Source: Herbiconiux aconitum (GTDB lineage: Bacteria; Actinomycetota; Actinomycetes; Actinomycetales; Microbacteriaceae). Taken from it: 64,000 nucleotides of DNA. This document shows positions 33,932-59,039 of this stretch, in pieces; the first letter of the stretch is position 1, and each line of letters opens with the position of its first letter. The DNA is taken from assembly GCF_024979235.1 (NCBI RefSeq), contig NZ_JANLCM010000001.1:2294001-2358000 (forward strand), read 5' to 3'. The notes under the pieces are model-generated. The model was not told the DNA's origin. It was given only the letters and a program-made list of their open reading frames with translations, and made no database searches. Made by a program: the position numbers and the translations under genes.

Positions 33932-34615
33932 ATGGTCCAGTTCTTCACGCTCATCGACGCCGCGTCGCTCGGCGACCTCAAGGTCTTCCTCGGCCGCGCC
34001 GCGCGCGTCGAGAACGGCTCGGTCCGCCTGATCGGCGGTCTCGGTGTCCTCGCCGCCTACACCGCCGTGCTGACCCCCAAGGGGCTGCTCGATTCGACGC
34101 CGACGGTGCTGGGTCTCCGCACCTTCGCTCTGGGGAGCCCGGATGCCTTCGACGTCGTGGTGAGCATCCGTGCGCTCCTCGATCGCCTCGCCCAGCTCTC
34201 GCTGGTCAGCAACTCCGAGTCGGGGCCGATCGACGTTCCTCTGCCGCCGCCCGACACCGGAATCGCCTGGGCCGGCATCAGCCCCCCGCGAGGAGGGTGG
34301 CAGCCGGCCGGAACCCTGCCCTCGAAGCTGCTCGAGACCGTCGCGCGCACCGGCATCGCCGAAGTCGCGGCCGCCGTGCCGGCCGACACCGGCGAGCAAC
34401 TCGTGCACCGCGTGCGTTCCGAGGTCTGGGGGCGGGAGCTCGCCGAGAACGAGCTCCCCGACCTGCATCCGCGCATCCCGGCCGGAGCCGCCTTCTGCGC
34501 TGTGAGCCTGGGCTTCGTGCGCCGCGACGACGAGGAGGTGCGCGTGTTCCACGTTGGCCCGTGGCTCCGCCTCACCTTGCGCCGCGGACACGTGCTCGTT
34601 CTCGTGAGGCGCTAG
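33932..34615 (+). CDS. Conserved actinobacterial protein of unknown function
   Basis: This 227-residue protein has no recognisable domain. It starts MVQFFTLIDAASLGDLKVFLGRAARVE. The middle reads VVVSIRALLDRLAQLSLV, SNSESGPIDVPLPPPDTGIAW and GISPPRGGWQPAGTLPSK. It ends DEEVRVFHVGPWLRLTLRRGHVL. There are no membrane segments. The actinobacterial family is often found near thioesterase or lipid genes, as here, but the function is unknown. A partial family C repeat follows the stop at once, then a palindrome and the second C copy. Confidence 0.7.
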   Translation: MVQFFTLIDAASLGDLKVFLGRAARVENGSVRLIGGLGVLAAYTAVLTPKGLLDSTPTVLGLRTFALGSPDAFDVVVSIRALLDRLAQLSLVSNSESGPIDVPLPPPDTGIAWAGISPPRGGWQPAGTLPSKLLETVARTGIAEVAAAVPADTGEQLVHRVRSEVWGRELAENELPDLHPRIPAGAAFCAVSLGFVRRDDEEVRVFHVGPWLRLTLRRGHVLVLVRR

Positions 34616-34616
34616 A

Positions 34617-34655
34617 GGCCCTCACCCTGGGCCATCGAACGCGGCCCGCGGCCTA
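34617..34655 (+). repeat. Partial family C element (3' tail only)
   Basis: Directly after the stop of the preceding gene, CTCACCCTGGGCCATCGA and then GCGGCCCGCGGCC match the 3' end of complete family C elements (see 42206-42290). The box and hairpins of the core are missing. The orientation is + (sense to the preceding gene). Confidence 0.65.
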
Positions 34656-34673
34656 CGATCGCGCGGGGCGGAG

Positions 34674-34735
34674 AACTCCAAACGTGGCGCACACCGCATC
34701 CCCATACGGGCGCGGTTTCCCCCTCGTTTGGAGTT
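34674..34735. repeat. 62-bp palindrome between convergent genes
   Basis: AACTCCAAACG (34674-34684) and CGTTTGGAGTT (34725-34735) are perfect 11-base complements. An inner ACCGC/GCGGT pair lies at 34692-34696 and 34712-34716. Size and design resemble families A and B, but the arm sequence was seen only once. It could form a nested hairpin or bidirectional terminator. Confidence 0.75.
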
Positions 34736-34785
34736 GTCCGAGCAACACATCCCCGAGAGCGACCGCAACAGGCCCTACTCGATGC

Positions 34786-34900
34786 CCCAGGGTGAGCGCG
34801 CGGCCGCGTCAGCGACCGCACGCGAACATGTCGCGCGGCGCCGGGCAAGGACCGGCGCCGCCCGAGGACGCCGCGCGCAGCACGGCGCCCGAGGCAGCTA
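34786..34900 (-). repeat. Family C structured 3'-UTR element, copy 1
   Basis: 115 bases directly after the TAG stop of the FAD-dehydrogenase gene (reverse strand). On that strand two GC hairpins come first, then the box CGACATGT (34826-34833), then a stem-loop with GGTCGC / GCGGCC at its top, ending CCCTGGG (34786-34792). It differs from copy 2 at only nine positions with no gaps. The 65-base distance from stop to box is the same in both. Confidence 0.9.
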
Positions 34901-36535
34901 CCGACTCGCCGCTCTCCCCGCCTGGCGGCCCGAGAACAGGCACCCACCCAAGAAGGTGCCCTCGAGCGCCCGGTAGCCGTGCATCCCGCCTCCACCGAAG
35001 CCGCTCACTTCACCGGCGGCATACAGACCGGCGATCGGTGCTCCGGATGCGTCGAGCACGCGTCCGTCGAGATCCGTCGACACCCCACCGAGGCTCTTGC
35101 GGGTGAGGATGTGCAGCTTCACGGCGATCAGCGGCCCAGCCTTCGGGTCGAGCAGCCGGTGCGGTTTGGCGGCCCGGATCAGCTTGTCCCCGAGGTAACG
35201 CCGGGCGCCGCGCACCGCGGTGATCTGCGCATCCTTCGTGAAGGTGTTGGCGATCTCGCGATCCCGCGCGAAGACTTCGCGGGTCACGCGGGCCGCATCG
35301 AGCGCACCGGACGGCTCGAGTCGCGCCATGCCGTGCAGCAACTCCGGCAGTGTGTCGGCCACCACGAAGTCGACGCCCCGCGACTTGAACGCCTCCACTG
35401 GACCGGGAGCGCCCGGACGGATGCGCTGCGCCAGCAACCGCAGGTCCTTGCCCGTGAGATCGGGGTTCTGCTCACTGCCCGAGAGGGCGAACTCCTTCTC
35501 GATGATCGACTGCGTCAGCACGAACCAGCTGTAGTCGTAGCCCGTGCCCAGGATGTGTTCGAGGGTGCCGAGCGTGTCGAATCCGGGGAACAGTGGCACC
35601 GGCAGCCGCGCGCCCGTCGCATCCAGCCACAGCGACGACGGCCCGGGGAGGATGCGGATGCCGTGCAGCGGCCAGACGGGGTCGAAGTTCGTGATGCCTT
35701 CCGTGTAGTGCCACATCCGGTCGGTGTTCACGAGACGGGCTCCGGCGCGCTCGCTGATGGCGAGCATCCGGCCGTCGACGTGCTCGGGAACGCCGGACAG
35801 CATGGTGGCCGGGGGAGCCCCGAGCCGCGAGGGCCATGAGGCACGAACCAGGTCGTGGTTGCCGCCGATGCCGCCGCTGGTCACGATGACGGCGCCGGCC
35901 GACAACTCGAAGTCGCCCACCACGTCCCGTGAGCTCGATTCGCCGCGCGCGGCCGAGCTCGGCGCGAGCACCGCGCCGCGCACACCGGTGACGATGCCGT
36001 CCGAGGTCACGATCTCGTCGACGCGGTGACGGTGCAGGATGCTCGCCCGCCCGTCGTCGAGGCCCGCCCGGAACCGCGCGATGAACGGCGCGAGTACCCC
36101 GGGGCCCGTGCCCCAGGTGATGTGGAAGCGCGGCACGGAGTTGCCGTGCCCGTTGGCCGTGTAGCCGCCACGCTCGGCCCAGCCCACCACGGGGAAGAAC
36201 CGTACGCCGCGTTCGTGCAGCCAGGCCCGCTTCTCACCGGCCGCGAACTGCAGGTAGGCCTCGGCCCATTTCTTCGGCCAGTCGTCTTCGGGGCGGTCGA
36301 AGCCGGCGCTGCCGATCCAGTCCTGCCGGGCGAGCTCGAGACTGTCGCGCACGCGCATCCGTCGCTGCTCCGGGCTGTCGATGAGGAAGATGCCGCCGAA
36401 CGACCACCAGGCCTGCCCACCGAGGGATGCCGCGGGCTCCTGCTCCACGATCGTCACCTGCTTGCCGGCATCCAGCAGTTCGCAGGCAGCCACCAAGCCG
36501 GCGAGACCGGCCCCCACCACGATCGCGTCTGGCAT
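34898..36535 (-). CDS. FAD-binding dehydrogenase (KstD/fumarate-reductase-like)
   Basis: This 545-residue flavoprotein has the N-terminal dinucleotide-binding motif VVGAGLAGLVAACELLDAGK and the FAD-contacting SLGGQAWWSFGGIF. The active-site region is HITWGTGPGVLAPFI. The C-terminal flavin segment is GLYAAGEVSGFGGGGMHGYR, followed by FLGGCLFSGRQAG. It belongs to the 3-ketosteroid delta-1-dehydrogenase-like family, and the substrate is unknown. No heme or membrane segment is seen. It is the last gene of an operon after a truncated globin (39 bases) and mscS. A family C repeat begins at its TAG stop. Confidence 0.9.
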   Translation of the reverse strand: MPDAIVVGAGLAGLVAACELLDAGKQVTIVEQEPAASLGGQAWWSFGGIFLIDSPEQRRMRVRDSLELARQDWIGSAGFDRPEDDWPKKWAEAYLQFAAGEKRAWLHERGVRFFPVVGWAERGGYTANGHGNSVPRFHITWGTGPGVLAPFIARFRAGLDDGRASILHRHRVDEIVTSDGIVTGVRGAVLAPSSAARGESSSRDVVGDFELSAGAVIVTSGGIGGNHDLVRASWPSRLGAPPATMLSGVPEHVDGRMLAISERAGARLVNTDRMWHYTEGITNFDPVWPLHGIRILPGPSSLWLDATGARLPVPLFPGFDTLGTLEHILGTGYDYSWFVLTQSIIEKEFALSGSEQNPDLTGKDLRLLAQRIRPGAPGPVEAFKSRGVDFVVADTLPELLHGMARLEPSGALDAARVTREVFARDREIANTFTKDAQITAVRGARRYLGDKLIRAAKPHRLLDPKAGPLIAVKLHILTRKSLGGVSTDLDGRVLDASGAPIAGLYAAGEVSGFGGGGMHGYRALEGTFLGGCLFSGRQAGRAASR

Positions 36536-36574
36536 GCGACTCCTTCGTCGTCGGTTACTCGTGACCGGTATTCG

Positions 36575-36979
36575 TCACTCGTCGAAAGTATTCACCATCG
36601 CATGCGCTGCGCGCTCGAGGTAACCCCAGAGGATTTCTCTGTCGAGCGGCGACAACTCGATCGAGTCCACGGCCACCTGCATGTGTGCGAGCCAACGGTC
36701 GCGCGCATCCGGGTTGACCTTGAATGGGTTGTGGCGCATCCGGAGCCGCGGATGCCCGCGCTGCTCGCTGTAGGTGCCCGGCCCGCCCCAGTACTGCTCG
36801 AGAAAGAGGGTGAGTCGCTCGACCGCGCCGTCCCAGTCGTCGGCCGGATACATCGGCTTCAGCACGGGATCGGTCGCCACGCCCTCGTAGAACTTCGTCA
36901 CCAACGCCACGAAGGTCGGGTGCCCGCCGATCTGCTCGTAGAACGGATGCTCGGGCATTTTCGGAGAGATCTCGATCAC
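36575..36979 (-). CDS. glbO: Truncated hemoglobin, group II (trHbO)
   Basis: This 134-residue 2-on-2 globin binds heme and O2/NO. PFYEQIGGHPTFVALVTKFYEGV carries the B10-type Tyr. The proximal His is in RGHPRLRMRHNPF. The G8-type Trp is in DARDRWLAHM. Group II globins in actinobacteria handle NO or deliver O2 to membranes. The GTG at 36979 is used; a start seven codons later (MPEHPFYEQ) is possible. It begins 3 bases after the mscS stop and lies 39 bases before the FAD-dehydrogenase, so it may pass electrons to or from that flavoprotein. Confidence 0.93.
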   Translation of the reverse strand: MIEISPKMPEHPFYEQIGGHPTFVALVTKFYEGVATDPVLKPMYPADDWDGAVERLTLFLEQYWGGPGTYSEQRGHPRLRMRHNPFKVNPDARDRWLAHMQVAVDSIELSPLDREILWGYLERAAHAMVNTFDE

Positions 36980-36982
36980 GAT

Positions 36983-37975
36983 CTAATTGTGTCCCTTCGA
37001 GCCCGATTGCGTGGGCTCGCTGGTGGCGACCGACTTGGTGCGCGGCGGCCGTGCACCTTTCACGCTGGTCGCGCCCTCGAAGCCCGAGAGCACGACCGTG
37101 TTCAGAGACGGCAAGGTCACGTCGAGCTCGTCGAGCGCCCGCTTCAGGCGGATGCGCAGATCGCGGGCCACGTCGTCCTTCGCCGAGGTGCGCGTCTTCA
37201 CCACGACACGGATGACGAGTGCTTCGGCCGAGATCGACTCCAGGCCCCAGATCTCGGGCTTCTCGATCACCCGCGAGCGCCACTTGGGCTCGTTCGACAT
37301 GGTGACGGCGGTTTCGAGGATCTTGTCCTGCACAACGTCGAGATCGGCGTCATAAGGAATGGCGAGGTCGATGATGACGCGGGCCCAGCCCTGCGACATG
37401 TTGCCGACCCGCAGGATCTCGCCGTTGCGCACGAACCAGAGGGTTCCGTTCACGTCACGCACCTGGGTGACACGAATGCCGACCCCCTCGACCACGCCGG
37501 TGGCCGGGCCGAGGTCGACGACGTCGCCGACGCCGAGCTGATCCTCGAACACCATGAACAGGCCGTTCAGCACGTCTTTCACGATGTTCTGCGCGCCGAA
37601 GCCGAGACCGGCGCCGAGAGCTGCGGTGAGCAGCGCGAGCGAGCCGAGCACGGTCGGGTCGATCGTGTTGACGAGCAGGATGACACCGACCACGACGATC
37701 GTGACGTTGATGACGTTGGTGAGCACCGTTCCGAGCGTGCGTGTGCGTTGCACGATGCGCACCGCAGCCAGAGGCGAGGCGTTCAGCGCCTGGGTGTCGG
37801 TGACGTTCTGCTTCTTCTTGACCCCGTTGACCACCTGATCGACCAGGCGTCGCACGGTGAAGAGCAGAATTCCTCGCAGCACGATCGCGCCGATGATGAT
37901 GACGAGGATGCTGATGGGCACTCGGTAGTCGTTGAGGAACGAATTGAAGTTCGCCCAGATCGTGTTCCAGTCCAT
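36983..37975 (-). CDS. mscS: MscS-family mechanosensitive channel
   Basis: This 330-residue small-conductance mechanosensitive channel has about three N-terminal hydrophobic helices (ISILVIIIGAIVLRGILLF, TLGTVLTNVINVTIVVVGVILLV, VLGSLALLTAALGAGLGFGAQ). The third is the pore helix with the Gly/Ala pattern, followed by the beta domain (GVGDVVDLGPATGVVEGVGIRVT). The cytoplasmic C-terminal part is charged. It relieves osmotic down-shock. It is the first gene of the mscS-trHbO-FAD operon. The C-terminal tail of about 40 residues is basic and disordered. Confidence 0.92.
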   Translation of the reverse strand: MDWNTIWANFNSFLNDYRVPISILVIIIGAIVLRGILLFTVRRLVDQVVNGVKKKQNVTDTQALNASPLAAVRIVQRTRTLGTVLTNVINVTIVVVGVILLVNTIDPTVLGSLALLTAALGAGLGFGAQNIVKDVLNGLFMVFEDQLGVGDVVDLGPATGVVEGVGIRVTQVRDVNGTLWFVRNGEILRVGNMSQGWARVIIDLAIPYDADLDVVQDKILETAVTMSNEPKWRSRVIEKPEIWGLESISAEALVIRVVVKTRTSAKDDVARDLRIRLKRALDELDVTLPSLNTVVLSGFEGATSVKGARPPRTKSVATSEPTQSGSKGHN

Positions 37976-38081
37976 ATGGGGAAGATCCTACGGGCCGACT
38001 CTTGGCAGAAGCTCAGTGCCGGGTTGCGCGCGCCCGCTCACACCTCGCTACCATGAGGCACCCCTAGCGGAGGAGGACCCC

Positions 38082-38663
38082 ATGGGCAAGGTGGTCATGT
38101 ACAGCTCGGTGTCGGTGGACGGCTTCATCGCCGACGAGAACGATCAGCCCGGACCGCTGTTCGACTGGTTGACCGGTGGTGACGTCGCGTTGGACGAGAG
38201 CGGTGTGCTGAAGGTGTCGCAAGCGTCCTACGACTACATCCGGCCGTACTGGGATCAGATCGGGGTGACGATCGCCGGCCGCCATGTCTTCGACCTGACG
38301 GACGGCTGGGACGGCACGCCTCCGAGCGGGATCGACCACGTGGTGGTCGTGACGCACCGGCGTCGACCTTCGGGCTGGGGCCTCGAGGCACCGTTCCATT
38401 TTGTCGACGGCGTCGAGGCAGCTGTGGCCAAGGCGCAGGAACTGGCCGGTGACCGCATCGTGGAGGTCGCCGCCGGCGACGTCGGTGGCCAGGTGCTGGC
38501 CGCGGGCTTGGTCGACGAGGTGCGGATGGATGTCGTTCCCGTCGTGTTCGGCGCCGGCAAGCGCTACTTCGGACCGATCGACGCCCAGCACCTGTTAGAA
38601 GGCCCCGACGACGTCATCCAGGGCGACCGAGTGCTGCACGTGCGCTATCGAGTCCGCCCCTGA
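38082..38663 (+). CDS. DHFR/RibD C-terminal-like reductase
   Basis: This 193-residue protein starts GKVVMYSSVSVDGFIADENDQPG, the signature of RibD_C/dihydrofolate-reductase-like proteins. The NADPH-binding segment is DQIGVTIAGRHVFDLTDGWDG. VAAGDVGGQVLAAGLVDEVRMDVVPVVFGAG is split here across the conserved strand-helix-strand. The substrate is probably a pteridine- or pyrimidine-like compound. The ATG has GGAGGAGGACCC just upstream. It is divergent from mscS and convergent with pepN across family C copy 2. Confidence 0.88.
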   Translation: MGKVVMYSSVSVDGFIADENDQPGPLFDWLTGGDVALDESGVLKVSQASYDYIRPYWDQIGVTIAGRHVFDLTDGWDGTPPSGIDHVVVVTHRRRPSGWGLEAPFHFVDGVEAAVAKAQELAGDRIVEVAAGDVGGQVLAAGLVDEVRMDVVPVVFGAGKRYFGPIDAQHLLEGPDDVIQGDRVLHVRYRVRP

Positions 38664-38773
38664 CCGACTTGGGGCCCGGCCCAGTCCTCATTGCGCAGCT
38701 TGTCGCGCGATGGCGCGGCCTGTCGCACTGGCGCAGGCCGCGGGACACGACGCAACAGGCCGCTCCCGAACGC

Positions 38774-38888
38774 CCCAGGGTGAGCGCGAGGCCGCGCAAG
38801 CGACCTCACGCGAACATGTCGCGCGGCGCCGGGCAAGGACCGGCGACGCCCGAGGAGGCCGCGCGAAGCACGGCCCCCGAGGCAACTA
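38774..38888 (-). repeat. Family C structured 3'-UTR element, copy 2
   Basis: 115 bases directly after the pepN TAG stop on the reverse strand: two hairpins, the CGACATGT box (38814-38821, read on minus), the stem-loop with GGTCGC / GCGGCC, and CCCTGGG at the end. It has the same length as copy 1 with about 92 percent identity. The neighbouring genes are unrelated to those beside copy 1. Confidence 0.9.
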
Positions 38889-41438
38889 AGAAGCGTCCCG
38901 CCCCTGCGCCGCCAGCGCCCGATCCACTCCCGCGAGGTTCTCGATCACCAAGCGCCGCAACGCCGGAATGCCCTCGTTCGCCGGGTCGTCGAGCCACGCC
39001 TGGGTCGCATCCCGCAGCTCCTGGTTCGCCAGTGCGGCGGGGTACAGCCCGTTGATGACGGAGGCGGCGATCGCGTAGCTGCGGTTCGCCCAGAGCGGCT
39101 GCAGCGCCTCGAAGTAGCGCGGAACGAGCGGCGCGAACAGCGCCGGGTCGCTGCCACGCTGGAAGCCGAGGCCGGTGGCTCGCACGATCGCGTTCGGGGC
39201 CGTGTCGGTGTCGACCAGTGACGCGAACGCCGCAGCCTTGCCCTCGGGTGTCGGGATGGCCGCGGTGGCGTGCGCCGCCGACTGCTGGCCCGACGCGGTG
39301 TTGTCGGCCTCGAGGGTGGCGTCGATCTCGGCCTGACCGGCCCGGCCTCCCGCGACGAGCGCGATGAGCAGCTCCCAGGTGAGGTCGGTGTCGATATCGA
39401 GGCCCTCGAGCATCACGGTGCCGTCGTGCAGGTGCGCCACGTTCTCGAGCTGCTCGTCGGTGCTGGCGAGGGCGGCGAAGAACTTCACGAACTGGAACTG
39501 CGCATCCGATCCCGGCGCGGCGTCGAGTGCGAGCTTCCACAGCGCGTCGGCGGCGGTGCGGATCGTCTCGGTGCGTGCATCCGGAGCCACGTATTGCGTT
39601 GCCGTGAGCACCAACTGGCCCAGCACGGTGCGGATCGTGGTCGACTCCGTCTCAGTGGCGATGTTGCCGAGCACCAGGCGCACGAAGTCGCGGCCGCGGG
39701 TCTCGGCGTCACGCGTCGCGTCCCAGGCCGAACCCCACACCAGCGATCGGGCCAGCGGGCTCTCGATCGACGCGAGGTGCTCGATCGCGATGTCGAGCGA
39801 GTACGCATCCAGGCGGATCTTCGCGTAGGCGAGGTCGTCGTCGTTCAGCAGCACCAAGTCGGGCCGCTCACGGCCCACGAGCTCCGGCACCTCGGTGCGC
39901 GTGCCGTCGACGTCGAGTTCGACCCGGTAGTCACGCACGAGGCGGTCGTTCGCGACGTTGTAGAAGCCGATCGCCAGACGGTGCGGGCGGATGGTGGGAT
40001 AGTCGAGCGCTGCTTCCTGCAGCACGGCGAACGAGGTGATGATCCCATCCGCGTTCACCTCGATGGCGGGCCGCAACGTGTTCACCCCCGCGGTCTCGAG
40101 CCAGAGCTGCGACCATTCGGTGAGGTCGCGGCCGCTCGTGGTCTCGAGCTCGGTGAGCAGGTCGTTCAGCTCGGTGTTGCCGAACTGGTGCTTGTTGACG
40201 TAGGCGGCGACGCCGGCCATGAACTCGTCCTGACCGACCCAGGCCACGAGCTGCTTCAGCACCGAGGCGCCCTTGGCGTAGGTGATGCCGTCGAAGTTCA
40301 CCTGCACGTCTTCGAGGTCGTTGATGGTGGCGACGATCGGATGCGTCGACGGCAGCTGATCCTGCCGGTAGGCCCAGCTCTTCTCCATCGCGGCGAAGGT
40401 GGTCCAGGCTTCTTTCCACTCGGTGGCTTCGGCCGTCGCGAGCGTCGACATGTATTCGGCGAACGACTCGTTCAGCCATAGGTCGTTCCACCAGCGCATG
40501 GTCACAAGATCGCCGAACCACATGTGGGCGAGCTCGTGCAGGATCGTCACGACCCGGCGCTCGCGCACCGCATCGGTCACCTTCGAGCGGAACACGTAGG
40601 TCTCGGTGAAGGTCACCGCGCCCGCGTTCTCCATGGCGCCCGCGTTGAACTCGGGCACGAAGAGCTGGTCGTACTTCGCGAAGGGGTAGGGGAAGTCGTA
40701 CTTCTCCTCGTAGAACGCGAAGCCCTCGCGGGTCTTCTCGAAGATGTAGTCGGCATCCATGTACTGCGAGAGAGAAGCGCGCGAGAACACGCCGAGCGGG
40801 ATGACTCGGCCATCGGCGCTGGTGAGTTCGCTTCGCTCCACGATGTACGGACCGGCGACGATGGCCGTGATGTACGAGGAGATGCGCGGGGTGGGCTCGA
40901 AGGTCCACGTCGCGGTCTCGCCAGGATTGGCCGTCACGGGCTCGGGCGTGGGGGAGTTCGACACGACCTCCCAGTAGTCGGGGGCGGTGACGGTGAAGGT
41001 GAAGGTGGCCTTGAGGTCGGGCTGCTCGAACACCGCGAACATGCGGCGCGAGTCGGGCACCTCGAACTGGCTGTAGAGGTAGACCTCGTCGTCGACCGGA
41101 TCGACGAAGCGGTGCAGGCCCTCACCCGTGTTGGTGTACTCCATGTCGGCGTCGACCACGAGCGTGTTCTCGGCTTTGAGAGCGGGCAGCTGGATGCGCA
41201 CGCCGTCGGAGACGGTGGCGGGGTCGAGCGACTCGCCGTTCAGCGTCACGGCGTGCACCGTGCGCGTGATGGCGTCGATGAACGTCGACGCCCCCTCGGT
41301 GGCCGTGAAGGTGACGGTGGTGGTGCTGCGGAACGTCTCGGGACCTGTTGTGAGGTCGAGCACGACGTCGTAGCTCTTCGTTGCGAGGAGCGCAGCGCGC
41401 TCCTGGGCTTCGGCTCGGGTGAGGTTTTCTCCTGGCAC
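38886..41438 (-). CDS. pepN: Aminopeptidase N
   Basis: This 850-residue M1 zinc aminopeptidase of the cytoplasm removes N-terminal residues from peptides. The substrate motif is FNAGAMENAGAVTF. The zinc site is HELAHMWFGDLVTMRWWN, and the second Glu lies in LWLNESFAEYMSTLA. The ERAP1-like C-terminal helical domain fills the last 350 residues. The N-terminus MPGENLTRAEAQERAALLATKSYDV is typical of actinobacterial PepN, and length is normal. It is a single gene facing the DHFR-like gene. Confidence 0.97.
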   Translation of the reverse strand: MPGENLTRAEAQERAALLATKSYDVVLDLTTGPETFRSTTTVTFTATEGASTFIDAITRTVHAVTLNGESLDPATVSDGVRIQLPALKAENTLVVDADMEYTNTGEGLHRFVDPVDDEVYLYSQFEVPDSRRMFAVFEQPDLKATFTFTVTAPDYWEVVSNSPTPEPVTANPGETATWTFEPTPRISSYITAIVAGPYIVERSELTSADGRVIPLGVFSRASLSQYMDADYIFEKTREGFAFYEEKYDFPYPFAKYDQLFVPEFNAGAMENAGAVTFTETYVFRSKVTDAVRERRVVTILHELAHMWFGDLVTMRWWNDLWLNESFAEYMSTLATAEATEWKEAWTTFAAMEKSWAYRQDQLPSTHPIVATINDLEDVQVNFDGITYAKGASVLKQLVAWVGQDEFMAGVAAYVNKHQFGNTELNDLLTELETTSGRDLTEWSQLWLETAGVNTLRPAIEVNADGIITSFAVLQEAALDYPTIRPHRLAIGFYNVANDRLVRDYRVELDVDGTRTEVPELVGRERPDLVLLNDDDLAYAKIRLDAYSLDIAIEHLASIESPLARSLVWGSAWDATRDAETRGRDFVRLVLGNIATETESTTIRTVLGQLVLTATQYVAPDARTETIRTAADALWKLALDAAPGSDAQFQFVKFFAALASTDEQLENVAHLHDGTVMLEGLDIDTDLTWELLIALVAGGRAGQAEIDATLEADNTASGQQSAAHATAAIPTPEGKAAAFASLVDTDTAPNAIVRATGLGFQRGSDPALFAPLVPRYFEALQPLWANRSYAIAASVINGLYPAALANQELRDATQAWLDDPANEGIPALRRLVIENLAGVDRALAAQGRDAS

Positions 41439-41533
41439 TGGTTGCTCTCCTTTTCGATTGCCCGATCAGCCTAATGGGGGCGCCCGGTCAGGGCATCCGG
41501 CATATCCGCAGGGGGCGCGTGGTTCGATGAAAC

Positions 41534-42145
41534 ATGACCTCTTCGAAGACAGCTGTTGATTTCTGGTTCGACCCCTCGTGCCCCTGGGCGTGGATGACCT
41601 CCCGCTGGGTCGACGAGGTGGCGGAGCACCGTGACCTCGACGTCACCTGGCACATCATGAGCCTCGCGGTGCTGAACGAGAACAACGACGACATCTCCGA
41701 TTCGTACAAGGCGTTCTTTCCCCGCGCTCTCCGCTACACCCGCCTCGTGGCCGCGGCCGCAGAGCTGCACGGGCAGCAGGTGGTGAAGCCGCTTTACGAC
41801 GCGCTCGGCACCCGCATCCACCCGGGCGGTTCCGTCGACCCCGACGAAGTGATTCCGGCGGCGCTCGCCGAGGTCGGCCTGCCGGCGTCGCTCGCCGCCT
41901 ACTCCGAGTCCGACGAGTACGACCCGCAGATGCGTGCCTCCCACTTCGACGGCATCGACCGGGTGGGCCAGGATGTCGGAACCCCCGTGATCGCGGTGAA
42001 CGGGACCGCCTTCTTCGGACCCGTGATCAGCCCGGTGCCCACCGGCGAGATGGCGCTGACGCTGTGGGACGGGGTGGTGGCCGCGGCGTCGTACGACGGG
42101 TTCTTCGAGATCAAGCGGTCGCGGACTAGGGAGCCGCAGTTCTAG
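41534..42145 (+). CDS. Mycothiol-dependent nitroreductase Rv2466c-like (DsbA family)
   Basis: This 203-residue thioredoxin-fold protein has N-terminal VDFWFDPSCPWAWMTSRWVDEV. The redox motif is CPWA: the first Cys is kept and the second is Ala, whereas I recall Mycobacterium Rv2466c with CPWC. The helical insert is MSLAVLNENNDDISDSYKAF, and the cis-Pro region reads DVGTPVIAVNGTAFFG. It probably uses mycothiol for reduction of disulfides or nitro compounds, here perhaps by a monothiol mechanism. It is divergent from pepN. A terminator hairpin and family C copy 3 follow. Confidence 0.88.
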   Translation: MTSSKTAVDFWFDPSCPWAWMTSRWVDEVAEHRDLDVTWHIMSLAVLNENNDDISDSYKAFFPRALRYTRLVAAAAELHGQQVVKPLYDALGTRIHPGGSVDPDEVIPAALAEVGLPASLAAYSESDEYDPQMRASHFDGIDRVGQDVGTPVIAVNGTAFFGPVISPVPTGEMALTLWDGVVAAASYDGFFEIKRSRTREPQF

Positions 42146-42168
42146 GGGGTACCGCTCCGCCGCTCTTC

Positions 42169-42199
42169 GGGCTCGCCCGGCCTTCGGCTGGGCGGGCCC
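42169..42199 (+). terminator. Terminator hairpin after the nitroreductase gene
   Basis: GGGC-T-CGCCC pairs with GGGCG-GGCCC around a GGCCTTCGGCT top, followed by TTATT. It lies 23 bases after the stop and before family C copy 3, so copy 3 would be transcribed only by read-through. Confidence 0.6.
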
Positions 42200-42205
42200 T
42201 TATTG

Positions 42206-42290
42206 CTCGCGCCGCCGCTGCTGCGGCGCGAGGCGACATGTTCGCGTGAGGTCGCTTCGCGGCCTCGCGCTCACCCTGGGTCGATGAGCG
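42206..42290 (+). repeat. Family C structured 3'-UTR element, copy 3
   Basis: The perfect hairpin CTCGCGCCGC / GCGGCGCGAG (42206-42232) is followed by the box CGACATGT (42234-42241), then the stem-loop TTCGCGTGA-GGTCGC / GCGGCC-TCGCGCTCA (42241-42273) and CCCTGGG. The orientation is the same as the nitroreductase gene. From 42291 to 42420 nothing further was recognised. Confidence 0.9.
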
Positions 42291-42420
42291 CGGCCTGCGG
42301 CCTGCGGTCTCGTTGCCCACGGCGTTTGGGATGAGGCTGCGGCCCGCAAATCCCGGTCTCGCTGCCTCCGTCCTCCCGTACGGGAGGAGGAGACGCACAC
42401 GACGGCCGTATGCGGGGGTC

Positions 42421-43215
42421 TTACCGCGCTGCTCCTCCCGAAAAGAGGGTGCGGGTCAGGTGGAGAGTGGCGGCGGCGAGCACCGTGGCTGCGGCCAGCC
42501 AGCCGCCGGCCGTCTCCACGACTCCGAGCGCGAGGTCGAAGGCTCCGGACGCGCCGGCGCGGTGCGACGTGGTCGCGAGGGCGACGGCGCCTCCGGCCGC
42601 CGTGCCCGCCGCCACCACCGACCAGAAGAAGACCGCCGAGGCCCGGCGGGCGTCGCCCGGCCGGGCGAACGGGCGGCGCCGGATCAGCCACACCGTCAGC
42701 CAAGCCGTGACCGCGACGAGCCCCAGCAGCGAGCTCACGTAGTGCAGCCAGACGGCGAGGGGGAGTCCCGCGAGACGCTCGTCGAGCGCGGGGAGGAGCA
42801 CGCCGCCCCAGCGTCCGGCGTGGGTGAAGCCGTCCCAGACGACGTGGGTCAGCACCCCGATTGCCAACGCGGCGACAAGCAGCGCGATGCCGGCCGCCGT
42901 CGTACCGAGCGACCGCCATCCGTCGGCCGCTGTGCCCGACCACTCGCTCGGCAGCCGCTCGGCCAGCGCCCGGGGTAACACCTCCCGAGCCACCGGTCGC
43001 ACCACGACCCGCCACAGCGCGAACGCCACGAACGCCAGCACCAGCCCGGTCAGCGGAAACCACGGCAGCTCGTGCGTCGACCCGTAGTCGAAACCCACGG
43101 GAAGGAACAGCGGTAGATCGGGCGCCATGGCTCCGGCGGCGACGGCCCCGGCCGGCAGCGCCGTGCGCACGAACGGCACCGCGACGATCGCATGGCTCAC
43201 GGTGAACGGCACCAC
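42421..43215 (-). CDS. DUF4184-family integral membrane protein
   Basis: This 264-residue protein has about six to seven hydrophobic helices. Its N-terminus, MVPFTVSHAIVAVPFV, and the conserved GAMAPDLPLFLP, HELPWFPLTGL and LTHVVWDGFTHAGRW match DUF4184. The His and Asp residues resemble membrane metal-dependent hydrolase families such as YdjM/LexA-binding, but activity has not been shown. It is divergent from rpiB. The stop is 131 bases beyond family C copy 3. Confidence 0.85.
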   Translation of the reverse strand: MVPFTVSHAIVAVPFVRTALPAGAVAAGAMAPDLPLFLPVGFDYGSTHELPWFPLTGLVLAFVAFALWRVVVRPVAREVLPRALAERLPSEWSGTAADGWRSLGTTAAGIALLVAALAIGVLTHVVWDGFTHAGRWGGVLLPALDERLAGLPLAVWLHYVSSLLGLVAVTAWLTVWLIRRRPFARPGDARRASAVFFWSVVAAGTAAGGAVALATTSHRAGASGAFDLALGVVETAGGWLAAATVLAAATLHLTRTLFSGGAAR

Positions 43216-43258
43216 GGCAGCGTACCCGCCTGTGCTCTCCCAGCAATAAACTCATCCC

Positions 43259-43747
43259 ATGCGAATCCACATCGGCACCGATCACGCCGGGCTCGACTTC
43301 AGCAAGCAGATCCAGAAGCACCTCACCGCCGCCGGTCACGAGGTCATCGATCACGGCCCCGAGTCGTACGACCCCATCGACGACTACCCGTCGTTCTGCA
43401 TCAACGCCGCGCACGGAGTCGTCGAAGACCAGCGTGCCGGGGTCGAGGCACTCGGCGTCGTCTTCGGCGGATCGGGCAACGGCGAGCAGATCGCCGCGAA
43501 CAAGGTCGACGGGGTGCGCGCCGCCCTCGCCTGGAACGAGGCCACCGCCAAACTCGCCCGCCAGCACAACGACGCGAACGTCGTGGCCATCGGCGCCCGG
43601 CAGCACACCGTCGAGGAGGCGCTCGCCCTGATCGACTTCTTCGTCAACGAGCCGTTCTCGCTCGAGGAGCGGCACGCGCGCCGCATCGCTCAGCTCGCCG
43701 AGTACGAGACCACCGGCGCGATCGCCGGCCACCACATCGACGCGTAG
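43259..43747 (+). CDS. rpiB: Ribose-5-phosphate isomerase B
   Basis: This 162-residue enzyme interconverts ribose-5-phosphate and ribulose-5-phosphate in the pentose phosphate pathway. HIGTDHAGLDFSKQIQKHL is the phosphate-binding start. GGSGNGEQIAANKVDGVRAAL is the actinobacterial-type loop in which Glu, not Cys, is the catalytic base. DHGPESYDPIDDYPSFC lies in the middle. It starts a + strand run rpiB-nei-PaiB-amidohydrolase with short spacers, so these may be one transcript. Confidence 0.96.
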   Translation: MRIHIGTDHAGLDFSKQIQKHLTAAGHEVIDHGPESYDPIDDYPSFCINAAHGVVEDQRAGVEALGVVFGGSGNGEQIAANKVDGVRAALAWNEATAKLARQHNDANVVAIGARQHTVEEALALIDFFVNEPFSLEERHARRIAQLAEYETTGAIAGHHIDA

Positions 43748-47093: not shown

Positions 47094-47153
47094 CGCGAAT
47101 CGCCAAAACACGCCGTGACGTGTCGGGTCGTAGCGACGGATTTTGGCGACTCG
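47094..47153. repeat. Inverted repeat family B, copy 2
   Basis: CGCGAATCGCCAAAA (47094-47108) faces TTTTGGCGACTCG (47141-47153). ATCGCCAAAA pairs with TTTTGGCGAC with one mismatch, and the GA(A/G)TCG part matches other copies. It lies between the convergent amidohydrolase and dps genes. Confidence 0.75.
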
Positions 47154-47177
47154 ACGAGAAACGCCGCCGAGCACGAA

Positions 47178-54033: not shown

Positions 54034-54699
54034 ATGGAGACACCCACGTTCGGTGCGAGTGCATACCGCAACGGCACCATGCCGACGGATCGCTACATCC
54101 TGCCGACCTTCGAAGAGCGCACGGCTTATGGCTTCAAGCGCCAAGACCCGTACGCGAAGCTGTTCGAGGATCGCATCATCTTCCTCGGCGTGCAGATCGA
54201 CGACGCCTCGGCCGATGACATCATGGCCCAGCTGCTCGTGCTCGAGTCGCAGGACCCGGATCGCGACATCGAGATGTACATCAACTCACCCGGTGGCTCG
54301 TTCACCGCGATGACGGCGATCTACGACACGATGCAGTACGTGCGTCCGCAGATCCAGACCGTGTGCCTCGGCCAGGCGGCCTCCGCTGCGGCCGTATTGC
54401 TCGCGGCCGGAACGCCCGGCAAGCGCCTCGCTCTGCCGAACGCGCGCATCCTCATCCACCAGCCGGCCACCGGCCAGGGCGGCGGACAGGCGTCCGACAT
54501 CGAGATCCAGGCTCGCGAGATCCTGCGCATGCGCGAGTGGCTCGAGGGCACGCTCTCGCACCACTCGAACCGCACGCTGGAGCAGGTCAACAAGGACATC
54601 GACCGCGACAAGATCCTGTCGGCCGACGAGGCGCTGGAGTACGGCCTCATCGACCAGGTTCTGACGTCGCGCAAGAACGTCCCGGCGCTCGTCAGCTAG
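54034..54699 (+). CDS. clpP2: ATP-dependent Clp protease proteolytic subunit 2
   Basis: This 221-residue partner of ClpP1 has the catalytic Ser in [16 protein letters not shown], the His in [12 protein letters not shown], and the Asp in [13 protein letters not shown]. The start [21 protein letters not shown] gives the longer N-terminal propeptide typical of actinobacterial ClpP2, which is trimmed before assembly. The chosen ATG at 54034 has AGGGATAC upstream; the same frame is open earlier only as overlap with clpP1. A strong terminator and a family C element follow the TAG stop. Confidence 0.97.
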
Positions 54700-54711
54700 C
54701 TGTGCTGGTCC

Positions 54712-54746
54712 GGAGGGGCCCGTCGCCTGTGGCGGCGGGCCCCTCC
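54712..54746 (+). terminator. Terminator after clpP2
   Basis: GGAGGGGCCCGTCGCC (54712-54727) pairs with GGCGGCGGGCCCCTCC (54731-54746) over 16 bases with one G-T pair and a 3-base loop. It is one of the strongest hairpins in the window, 12 bases after the clpP2 stop. No long T run follows. Confidence 0.75.
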
Positions 54747-54747
54747 G

Positions 54748-54830
54748 CTCGCGCCGCCGCTTCTGCGGCGCGAGGCGACATGTGGCGGTCCGGTCGCTTC
54801 GCGGCCGGGCCGCCACCCAGGGTCGTCGAG
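54748..54830 (+). repeat. Family C structured 3'-UTR element, copy 4
   Basis: The perfect hairpin CTCGCGCCGC / GCGGCGCGAG (54748-54774), box CGACATGT (54776-54783), stem-loop TGGCGGTCC-GGTCGC / GCGGCC-GGGCCGCCA (54783-54815) and CCCAGGG. The lower stem arms differ from those of copy 3 yet remain complementary, so the pairing is conserved though the bases are not. Confidence 0.9.
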
Positions 54831-54869
54831 TACGGCCCGCAGCTTTCGATTCGCATCCCGGCGTAGTGG

Positions 54870-55379
54870 ATGCGATTTCACCAGCAGCCAGCGCATCCAT
54901 TCGGTGATTTTGGAGCTGCAAAGGCGCGGCTCTCGCGTGTTCTCCGCGGGCTTGTGGGACCCAAGTGGGGGTTCTTCCTGCGGGCCGAGACCATGCACGG
55001 CTACTACAGCTACCTCGAGGCGCTGCCGGATTCGCCCGATCGCGACTTCCACGAGATGAGCCACGGCGAGTCGTTTCTGGCCCTGCTCGACCGCAAGATC
55101 GACTCGCCCGGCTTCTTCTGCCTCGACGAGCCGGAGGCTGCCCTCTCCTTCGGCTCCACGCTGCGGTATCTCGGGCAGCTCGACGCCCTGGCCAAGGCCG
55201 GCGCACAGGTCGTGTGCGCCACGCACTCGCCGGTGCTGGCCTCGCTGCCCGGTGCGACCATCCTCGAACTCGGCGAGTGGGGTATCCGCGAGTCGGCCTG
55301 GCACGACCTCGAACTCGTGCACCACTGGCGCAGCTTTCTGGATGCGCCGGGCCGTTACCTGCGTCACATCGTCGATTGA
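54870..55379 (+). pseudogene. 5'-truncated AAA-family ATPase remnant
   Basis: The frame codes the C-terminal half of an actinobacterial AAA/ABC-like ATPase. WGFFLRAETMHGYYSYLEAL, HEMSHGESFLALLDRK (signature-like), GFFCLDEPEAALSFGST (Walker B) and QVVCATHSPVLASLPGATI (H-loop) are all present and in order. The Walker A half that should precede them is missing: only about 25 unrelated-looking residues separate the ATG from this region. A family C element lies 40 bases upstream. The remaining 170 codons have no stop, so loss of the 5' half was recent or the fragment is kept. It is not expected to bind ATP. Confidence 0.75.
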
Positions 55380-58970: not shown

Positions 58971-59028
58971 CGAATCGCCAAAAACTGACGGAATGCGGGG
59001 GAGCGTTGCGGCGTGTTGTGGCGACTCG
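58971..59028. repeat. Inverted repeat family B, copy 3
   Basis: CGAATCGCCA (58971-58980), followed by AAAAC, faces TGGCGACTCG (59019-59028), preceded by GTTG. The arms pair with one mismatch. It lies between the aldo-keto reductase gene and a convergent small gene, 12 bases after the reductase stop. Confidence 0.7.
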
Positions 59029-59039
59029 ATGGGCGCGCG

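Follow-up and report, generated by a model that had tools for sequence, protein, structure and literature searches.

A dispersed three-hairpin element behind genes in Herbiconiux, with covarying stems and a REP/BIME-like placement

In a 64,000-nucleotide stretch of the Herbiconiux aconitum genome (the window; C1:2294001-2358000 of genome G000, 4.16 Mb), a first-pass annotation described four related inverted repeats, copies 1 to 4, whose stems differ in sequence while still pairing, and took this covariation as the usual sign that an RNA or DNA fold matters. The question raised by this locus is whether such compensated stems record selection on a fold, or the manner in which a repeat family writes its own arms.

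Copy 3, an X-type element (42146..42296, + strand, far end approximate), begins directly 3' of the TAG stop (42143-42145) of an Rv2466c-like gene. It consists of a terminator-like hairpin A of 14 bp with T.G and G.T wobbles (42169..42199, +), hairpin B (42206..42232, +), the conserved and unpaired box CGACATG (42234..42240, +), and hairpin C (42241..42273, +), in which the outer arm is variable and the core GGTCGC/GCGGCC near-constant. Copy 4 (54700..54837, + strand, far end approximate), 3' of the TAG stop (54697-54699) of a Clp protease gene, repeats this order on the same strand, with hairpin A of 17 bp (54711..54747), hairpin B (54748..54774), the conserved CGACATG box (54776..54782) and hairpin C (54783..54815). 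Copies 1 and 2 are Y-type elements on the minus strand with approximate far ends, the former (34771..34897) behind the TAG stop of an FAD-binding gene (34898-36535, minus strand) and the latter (38758..38885) behind the TAG stop of an M1 aminopeptidase gene (38886-41438, minus strand). In addition, the tail of an apparently deleted X-type copy lies at 34616..34653 (+), after a gene at 33932-34615 (+), and a full X copy is found at the equivalent place in a second Herbiconiux genome, G002. A different repeat pair occurs at 47096-47154 and 58971-59029 (CGAATCGCCAAAA..GGCGACTCGA), and a similar palindrome lies in one of the G002 gaps compared.

Most of what had been read from copies 3 and 4 is borne out. 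The two have in common hairpin B, CTCGCGCCGC/GCGGCGCGAG, at 42206-42232 and 54748-54774, the box CGACATGT at 42234 and 54776, and GGTCGC..GCGGCC at 42250-42264 and 54792-54806, and at one stem position the exchange between A-T in copies 2 and 3 and C-G in copy 1 is real. Their lower arms differ, with the sequences that had been quoted, but the claim that each pairs with itself holds at every position only for copy 4, where TGGCGGTCC/GGGCCGCCA pairs at 9/9 positions, one of them T.G; in copy 3, TTCGCGTGA/TCGCGCTCA pairs at 7/9 positions, one again T.G, and T.C and C.T are unpaired. In 42241-42273, as in many copies, TC stands opposite TC near the stem foot, a place that is fully paired in others, and such tandem T.C/C.T mismatches near the foot occur in some or many copies in all three hairpins. 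Two further candidate helices were set aside. The hairpin GCGCGACATGTTCGCGT, seen in truncated folds of copies 1 and 2, is a cutting artefact, full-length folds giving hairpin C instead, and an outer CGAC/GTCG helix closing hairpin C was rejected by eye because its 3' side varies while CGAC hardly does.

The unit first described is also incomplete, as every copy has hairpin A in front of it and a conserved tail behind. The dispersed element is about 130 nt long with three predicted hairpins, one arm comprising in order hairpin A, hairpin B, the unpaired CGACATG, hairpin C and a tail (CACCCTGGGTCGTCGAG..GGCC). Two arm types share the part from CGACATG through hairpin C to the tail. X arms start with (TAG)GGTACCG.., carry hairpin A in several alternative stems, and mostly have a hairpin B with the stem CTCGCGCCGC; Y arms mostly start with YTAG or YTGG before YTGCC, have the hairpin A loop GTGCTTCGCGC, and mostly contain GGTCCNNGCC in hairpin B. 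Within the stems, the loop-side halves are near-constant and the outer halves variable, and in hairpin A several different stem sequences occupy the same place. Arms also occur as inverted pairs, at least 13 in the H. aconitum loci, spaced 212-310 bp apart with one at 468, and by eye these pairs share a common middle part. Eleven of the 13 combine X and Y (10 by script as a Y arm plus another arm, and L002 by eye), while L018 and L049 have two X-like arms each.

The family is not a product of chance, though single words from it are not rare. In the H. aconitum genome the 22-mer CGACATGTTCGCGTGAGGTCGC has 76 matches at up to three mismatches, and the same pattern read backwards has none; within the window, CTCGCGCCGC with one mismatch occurs at chance level (49 against 52.6 expected). 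A covariance model (R1, built from 72 copies) finds 90 matches in this genome and, across the 16 Herbiconiux genomes, between 1 and 90 copies in each of 15, counts that may be low as 150 candidates were scored per genome. The sixteenth, G001, has zero matches to the model. When named genomes were scanned for an exact pattern, 67 loci came back, of which 58 are in Herbiconiux, five in one member of the Microbacteriaceae, and four are single occurrences in unrelated genera. Among 150 genomes drawn from the family, of which 147 belong to other genera, the model gave three weak outside matches (E 4e-4 to 9e-4) under stricter filters and with 25 candidates scored per genome. Two of these, L238 and L239, are hairpin-B-like palindromes and are not counted as members because no CGACATG box was seen beside them by eye. 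The element has thus been found so far in the genus Herbiconiux.

A single hairpin, CGCGCCGGTCCNNGCCCGGCGCG, is spread more widely, occurring in 8 of the 150 family genomes and in five genera including Herbiconiux, while the reversed pattern had no match among the matches listed for these genomes. It is of the same sequence type as hairpin B of the Y-type arms; outside the genus, unlike the element, it stands without CGACATG and hairpin C among the loci listed. In four other Microbacteriaceae genera (L243-L262), 6 of 16 loci, some of them overlapping, lie 8-9 nt past the stop codon of an open reading frame. This hairpin represents a wider REP-like family, for which we know of no earlier name.

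The position of the element relative to genes is biased. By heuristic gene calls, 64 of the 77 H. aconitum copies lie behind a gene on the same strand, 61 of them within 230 nt, and of the 13 that were not placed so, 11 are between two opposite-strand genes. Convergent gaps hold 48 of the 77 copies, while 15 of 52 gaps in the window are convergent; besides the 11 already named, 11 copies lie between two same-strand genes, one is in a divergent gap, and six are not fully placed. The stop codon before a copy is TAG in 38 of 58 genes, compared to 37 of 124 other genes in the same loci (Fisher p 9e-6), and in 8 of the 58 this TAG is immediately followed by the YTG with which a Y arm starts. The start tetranucleotides of 36 Y copies are CTAG (12), TTAG (7), CTGG (4), TTGG (3), GTAG (1) and others (3), with six not found.

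To the covariation itself two alignments were applied. A1 contains 72 of the 77 H. aconitum copies and 25 pairs, five copies (L018 +, L020 +, L023 +, L049 - and L101 -) having been dropped for an enlarged hairpin C loop; A2 contains 88 distinct rows (117 matches) from 95 hand-chosen loci in other genomes, aligned to a covariance model, which leans towards structure. In A1, 89.8% of cells pair, compared to 77.0% after shuffling, and 12 pairs are changed on both sides. The covariation score is 0.276 against 0.071 when shuffled; none of 500 shuffles reached it, and with partners slid the maximum is 0.059. For A2 the corresponding figures are 91.2% of cells paired and a score of 0.308 against 0.084. 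A tree-based null of our own approximation (FastTree, parsimony substitutions re-placed at random, 40 nulls, own script), to be read with the caveat that copies exchange modules, is exceeded at every value by 3 of the 25 pairs in A1 and 5 of the 25 in A2. Among pairs outside the structure, none does so in A1, and seven do in A2, around the hairpin B loop, where they are ascribed to its two loop types. The test over many copies that the first-pass annotation had proposed thus gives a strong signal in both alignments, with some pairs beating the tree-based null.

The pattern of the changes bears on what this signal means. When a pair in A1 changes to another standard pair, it does so on both sides in 208 cells and on one side in a single cell. 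Unpaired cells number 184 of 1799, and 159 of them fall at three pairs (columns 39/91, 40/90 and 6/26). Summed over the per-pair table of A2, there are 255 two-sided and 17 one-sided changes. Between the copies at the clpP end of G000 and G006, taken as orthologous as they lie behind the same gene, seven predicted pairs differ, of which four are compensated, one is changed on one side but still paired, and two are broken.

A possible further origin for stem complementarity is seen at L098 (G000:C1:1515668-1515779, minus strand), where the upstream gene (..GDAGDRLYGTV stop), which we take to encode uracil phosphoribosyltransferase, supplies the 5' arm of hairpin A with its final codons and the first part of its stop codon. 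The 3' arm contains an exact 12-nt reverse complement of this gene end. In L116, the H. ginsengi orthologue, the corresponding codons are present without such a 3' arm. This suggests that stem arms can be written by fold-back copying, although L098 is a single clean case; in five more entries a stop falls within the called hairpin, but these are less clear, and at least one of them may not be an element.

Given that standard-pair changes are nearly all double and that one arm is complementary to the end of a host gene, covariation argues less strongly for a selected fold than the first-pass annotation had it. The copies are a mobile repeat family and not independent lineages, and their covariation may be in part a signature of copying, even largely mutational, and not proof of a selected RNA. 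In its strongest form, this argument makes the element a selfish repeat that spreads as DNA with no role as RNA, its covariation arising from template switching between arms and exchange of hairpins, and gene 3' ends being merely the places where insertion is tolerated. The excess of double changes, the host-derived arm of L098 and the several stem sequences at the place of hairpin A would all fit, and passages of one study describe template switching as a source of compensatory changes (PMC8794818).

Such a purely selfish origin is nevertheless unlikely, given three observations. In the clpP-end comparison of G000 and G006, one stem shows three single-pair compensations with unchanged pairs between them, which is not the trace of one copied block. 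Mere tolerance of insertion does not predict the gene-sense orientation bias. Furthermore, copying of one arm from the other should replace U.G by Watson-Crick pairs, but these copies, related as they are, retain wobbles at fixed positions in stems that differ in sequence. At one pair of hairpin C (A1 columns 49/81), U.G is present in 72/72 H. aconitum copies and in 86/86 A2 rows with letters there, and in many hairpin A strings that differ in sequence, U.G or G.U occupies the same places in the stem. Of 105 distinct hairpin A strings drawn from 173 distinct copies, 95 fold more stably as the sense strand, although some of these strings are not hairpin A, and these counts, like those of the wobbles, come from related copies and are not independent events. 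Among the window copies the sense strand folds better in 4/4, with -85.9 vs -68.8 and -77.0 vs -62.3 kcal/mol for copies 1 and 2, and -85.6 vs -73.9 and -101.5 vs -89.0 kcal/mol for copies 3 and 4. As covariation is strong and sense folds are better than antisense folds, the predicted fold on the gene-sense strand is well supported, which is the part of the first-pass claim that stands. Since pure copying from arm to arm would erase the wobbles, their presence calls for either some sense-strand selection or very recent copying, and the sense-strand bias favours a role at the 3' end of an RNA.

Taken together, these features are probably best explained by a non-autonomous, REP/BIME-like dispersed element, mostly in gene sense behind stop codons, that would be transcribed with the mRNA 3' end and act there as a barrier, its stems being kept both by fold-back copying and by selection on the sense strand. 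The element starts at or behind a stop codon, preferentially TAG, is often present as an inverted X and Y pair, and mostly lies between two convergent genes. In this model, it would be transcribed together with the upstream gene and form the 3' end of its mRNA. Its hairpins would then act as a barrier that ends transcription and stops exonucleases for one or both convergent genes. The most likely function would be to end transcription or to shield the mRNA 3' end, which in convergent gaps would serve both genes. Complementarity of the stems would come partly from hairpin-templated copying during replication or insertion, and partly from sense-strand selection holding U.G wobbles at fixed stem positions.

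A bolder version of the copying component is tentative and, in our estimate, does not seem likely. It holds that fold-back copying of target DNA, or of DNA nearby, renews the stems, so that covariation is the footprint of replication or insertion chemistry, and structure is inherited while sequence is not. The outer half of a stem would be rewritten, with one arm serving as template for the other, or in one case the final codons of the host gene doing so; the loop-side half and the U.G-bearing core would remain unchanged. More generally, these data warn that mutational processes can give a positive covariation test when the sequences are copies of a dispersed repeat, and the element offers a test bed for how far stem covariation reflects selection as opposed to templated copying.

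Comparison of orthologous sites shows that copies come and go between species. At the clpP end, a full copy is present in 2 of 16 genomes (G000 and G006). Behind clpP in G015, L178 is a hairpin-A-like piece with no hairpin C and is a possible remnant. Most relatives have an ATPase-like gene next after clpP; in H. aconitum (54870-55379 in the window) and G006, the two genomes with a full element there, this gene apparently lacks its beginning, as judged by eye. At the pepN end, a gene-sense copy is present in G000, G004, G008 and, in part, G002, an inverted copy is found in G003, and none was seen in the 250 nt examined for the other 11 of 16 genomes. The G002 copy retains only hairpin A and the tail, showing that pieces can be lost. 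Behind the gene ending at 42145, H. aconitum has its X copy, a deleted Y copy stands at the same TAG in G004, and the other seven of eight relatives compared have no copy. Because arm types at one site differ between species, these sequences suggest independent gains at one site. The element is not essential, since most Herbiconiux orthologues at the examined sites are without it and G001 is matchless. All these comparisons use loci read by eye, as an automated search for filled and empty sites (104 places, 33 scored filled and 71 not, among the matches listed) had false positives (for example L012 vs L202, and element-only BLAST matches for L005 and L022), and in the empty-site comparisons, at most 16 of which were listed, the gaps were too diverged for exact insertion boundaries.

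How the element moves is a separate matter. Recognition of its hairpins as single-stranded DNA by a Y1 HUH transposase (RAYT/IS200-IS605 type), with TAG as the cleavage tag as in classical REPs, would agree with the enrichment of TAG at the element start, the gene-sense orientation, the palindromic structure and the inverted pairs, and passages of the work on tagged REPs report that their ends often supply a TAG stop (PMC3733652). This reading is improbable, however, as the H. aconitum genome, with its 90 copies, has no PF01797 match, the sole genus genome of 16 with one is G001, which has no element match, and the start is GTAG in only 1 of 36 Y copies. Derivation from a retroelement or group II intron was likewise rejected, given zero PF00078 matches in H. 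aconitum; such matches occur in 3 of the 16 genus genomes, G009, G001 and G007, which have 1, 0 and 25 element matches, respectively. BIMEs are bound by gyrase, and a chromosome-organising element of that kind, acting as duplex DNA between convergent genes, would fit the convergent gaps and inverted pairs but is very improbable, as duplex binding explains neither the variable but complementary arms nor the sense-strand bias, and many copies are single and one genus genome is without a match. The transcribed, REP/BIME-like barrier thus remains the favoured model, and the element can serve as a test bed for how REP-like repeats move without a RAYT.

Among known systems, the terminator-like character of the model finds a partial parallel in intrinsic terminators, which likewise place a GC-rich hairpin directly behind the stop, and in the X-type copy 3 hairpin A is followed by TTATT. 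The Y consensus differs in having no T-rich stretch after hairpin A, and the element as a whole differs in its three hairpins, dispersal and presence/absence variation. In a terminator scan of 34000-43500, hairpin A of copy 3 was the only element hairpin accepted, and the four hits in all, against 3.3 expected from shuffles, give no support by themselves to a role in ending transcription. At the Rfam gathering score, the element is unmatched across the whole window, where only four tRNAs and a TPP riboswitch are found, the latter (RF00059, 18018-18128) at 55.0 bits against a gathering score of 54.3.

The closest likeness is to REPs and BIMEs. As a palindromic repeat next to genes in many copies, the element shares the general character of tagged REPs, and with its 13 inverted pairs 212-468 bp apart it shows the closely spaced units in alternating orientation of a BIME. 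GTAG-tagged REPs, as described in passages of Di Nocera et al. (2013; PMC3733652), are multicopy palindromes beside gene 3' ends, mainly in convergent or unidirectional gaps, with inverted dimers, diverse stems and a terminus that often supplies the TAG stop, and judged by these passages the match in position, inverted dimers, TAG stop and diverse stems is close. A GTAG REP is, however, described there as one palindrome of 20-40 bp, as opposed to three hairpins in about 130 nt, and has a Y1 tyrosine transposase, whereas no RAYT was found in H. aconitum; the single GTAG start among 36 Y copies likewise sets the element apart from the tag. The CGTC-tagged REPs of the same passages have no dedicated transposase and form inverted dimers, as the element does, but differ from it in having loops of 4-5 and 8-9 bp stems whose first two positions are A-T (PMC3733652), and CGTC occurs in the element only inside the stem foot of hairpin B in many Y-type copies, with no unpaired tag. 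Membership in either tagged family is therefore not supported, and the element resembles, and would work like, a REP/BIME by analogy. The word Actinobacteria was not found in the main text of PMC3733652, no such element in Actinobacteria appeared in the titles and abstract openings of open-licence PMC papers among the matches listed, and one phrase searched with Herbiconiux in the same collection returned nothing. The present family thus adds to the known systems a REP/BIME-like element in Actinomycetota, with about 90 copies in a genome where no RAYT was found, and with orthologous sites at which its presence and absence can be compared.
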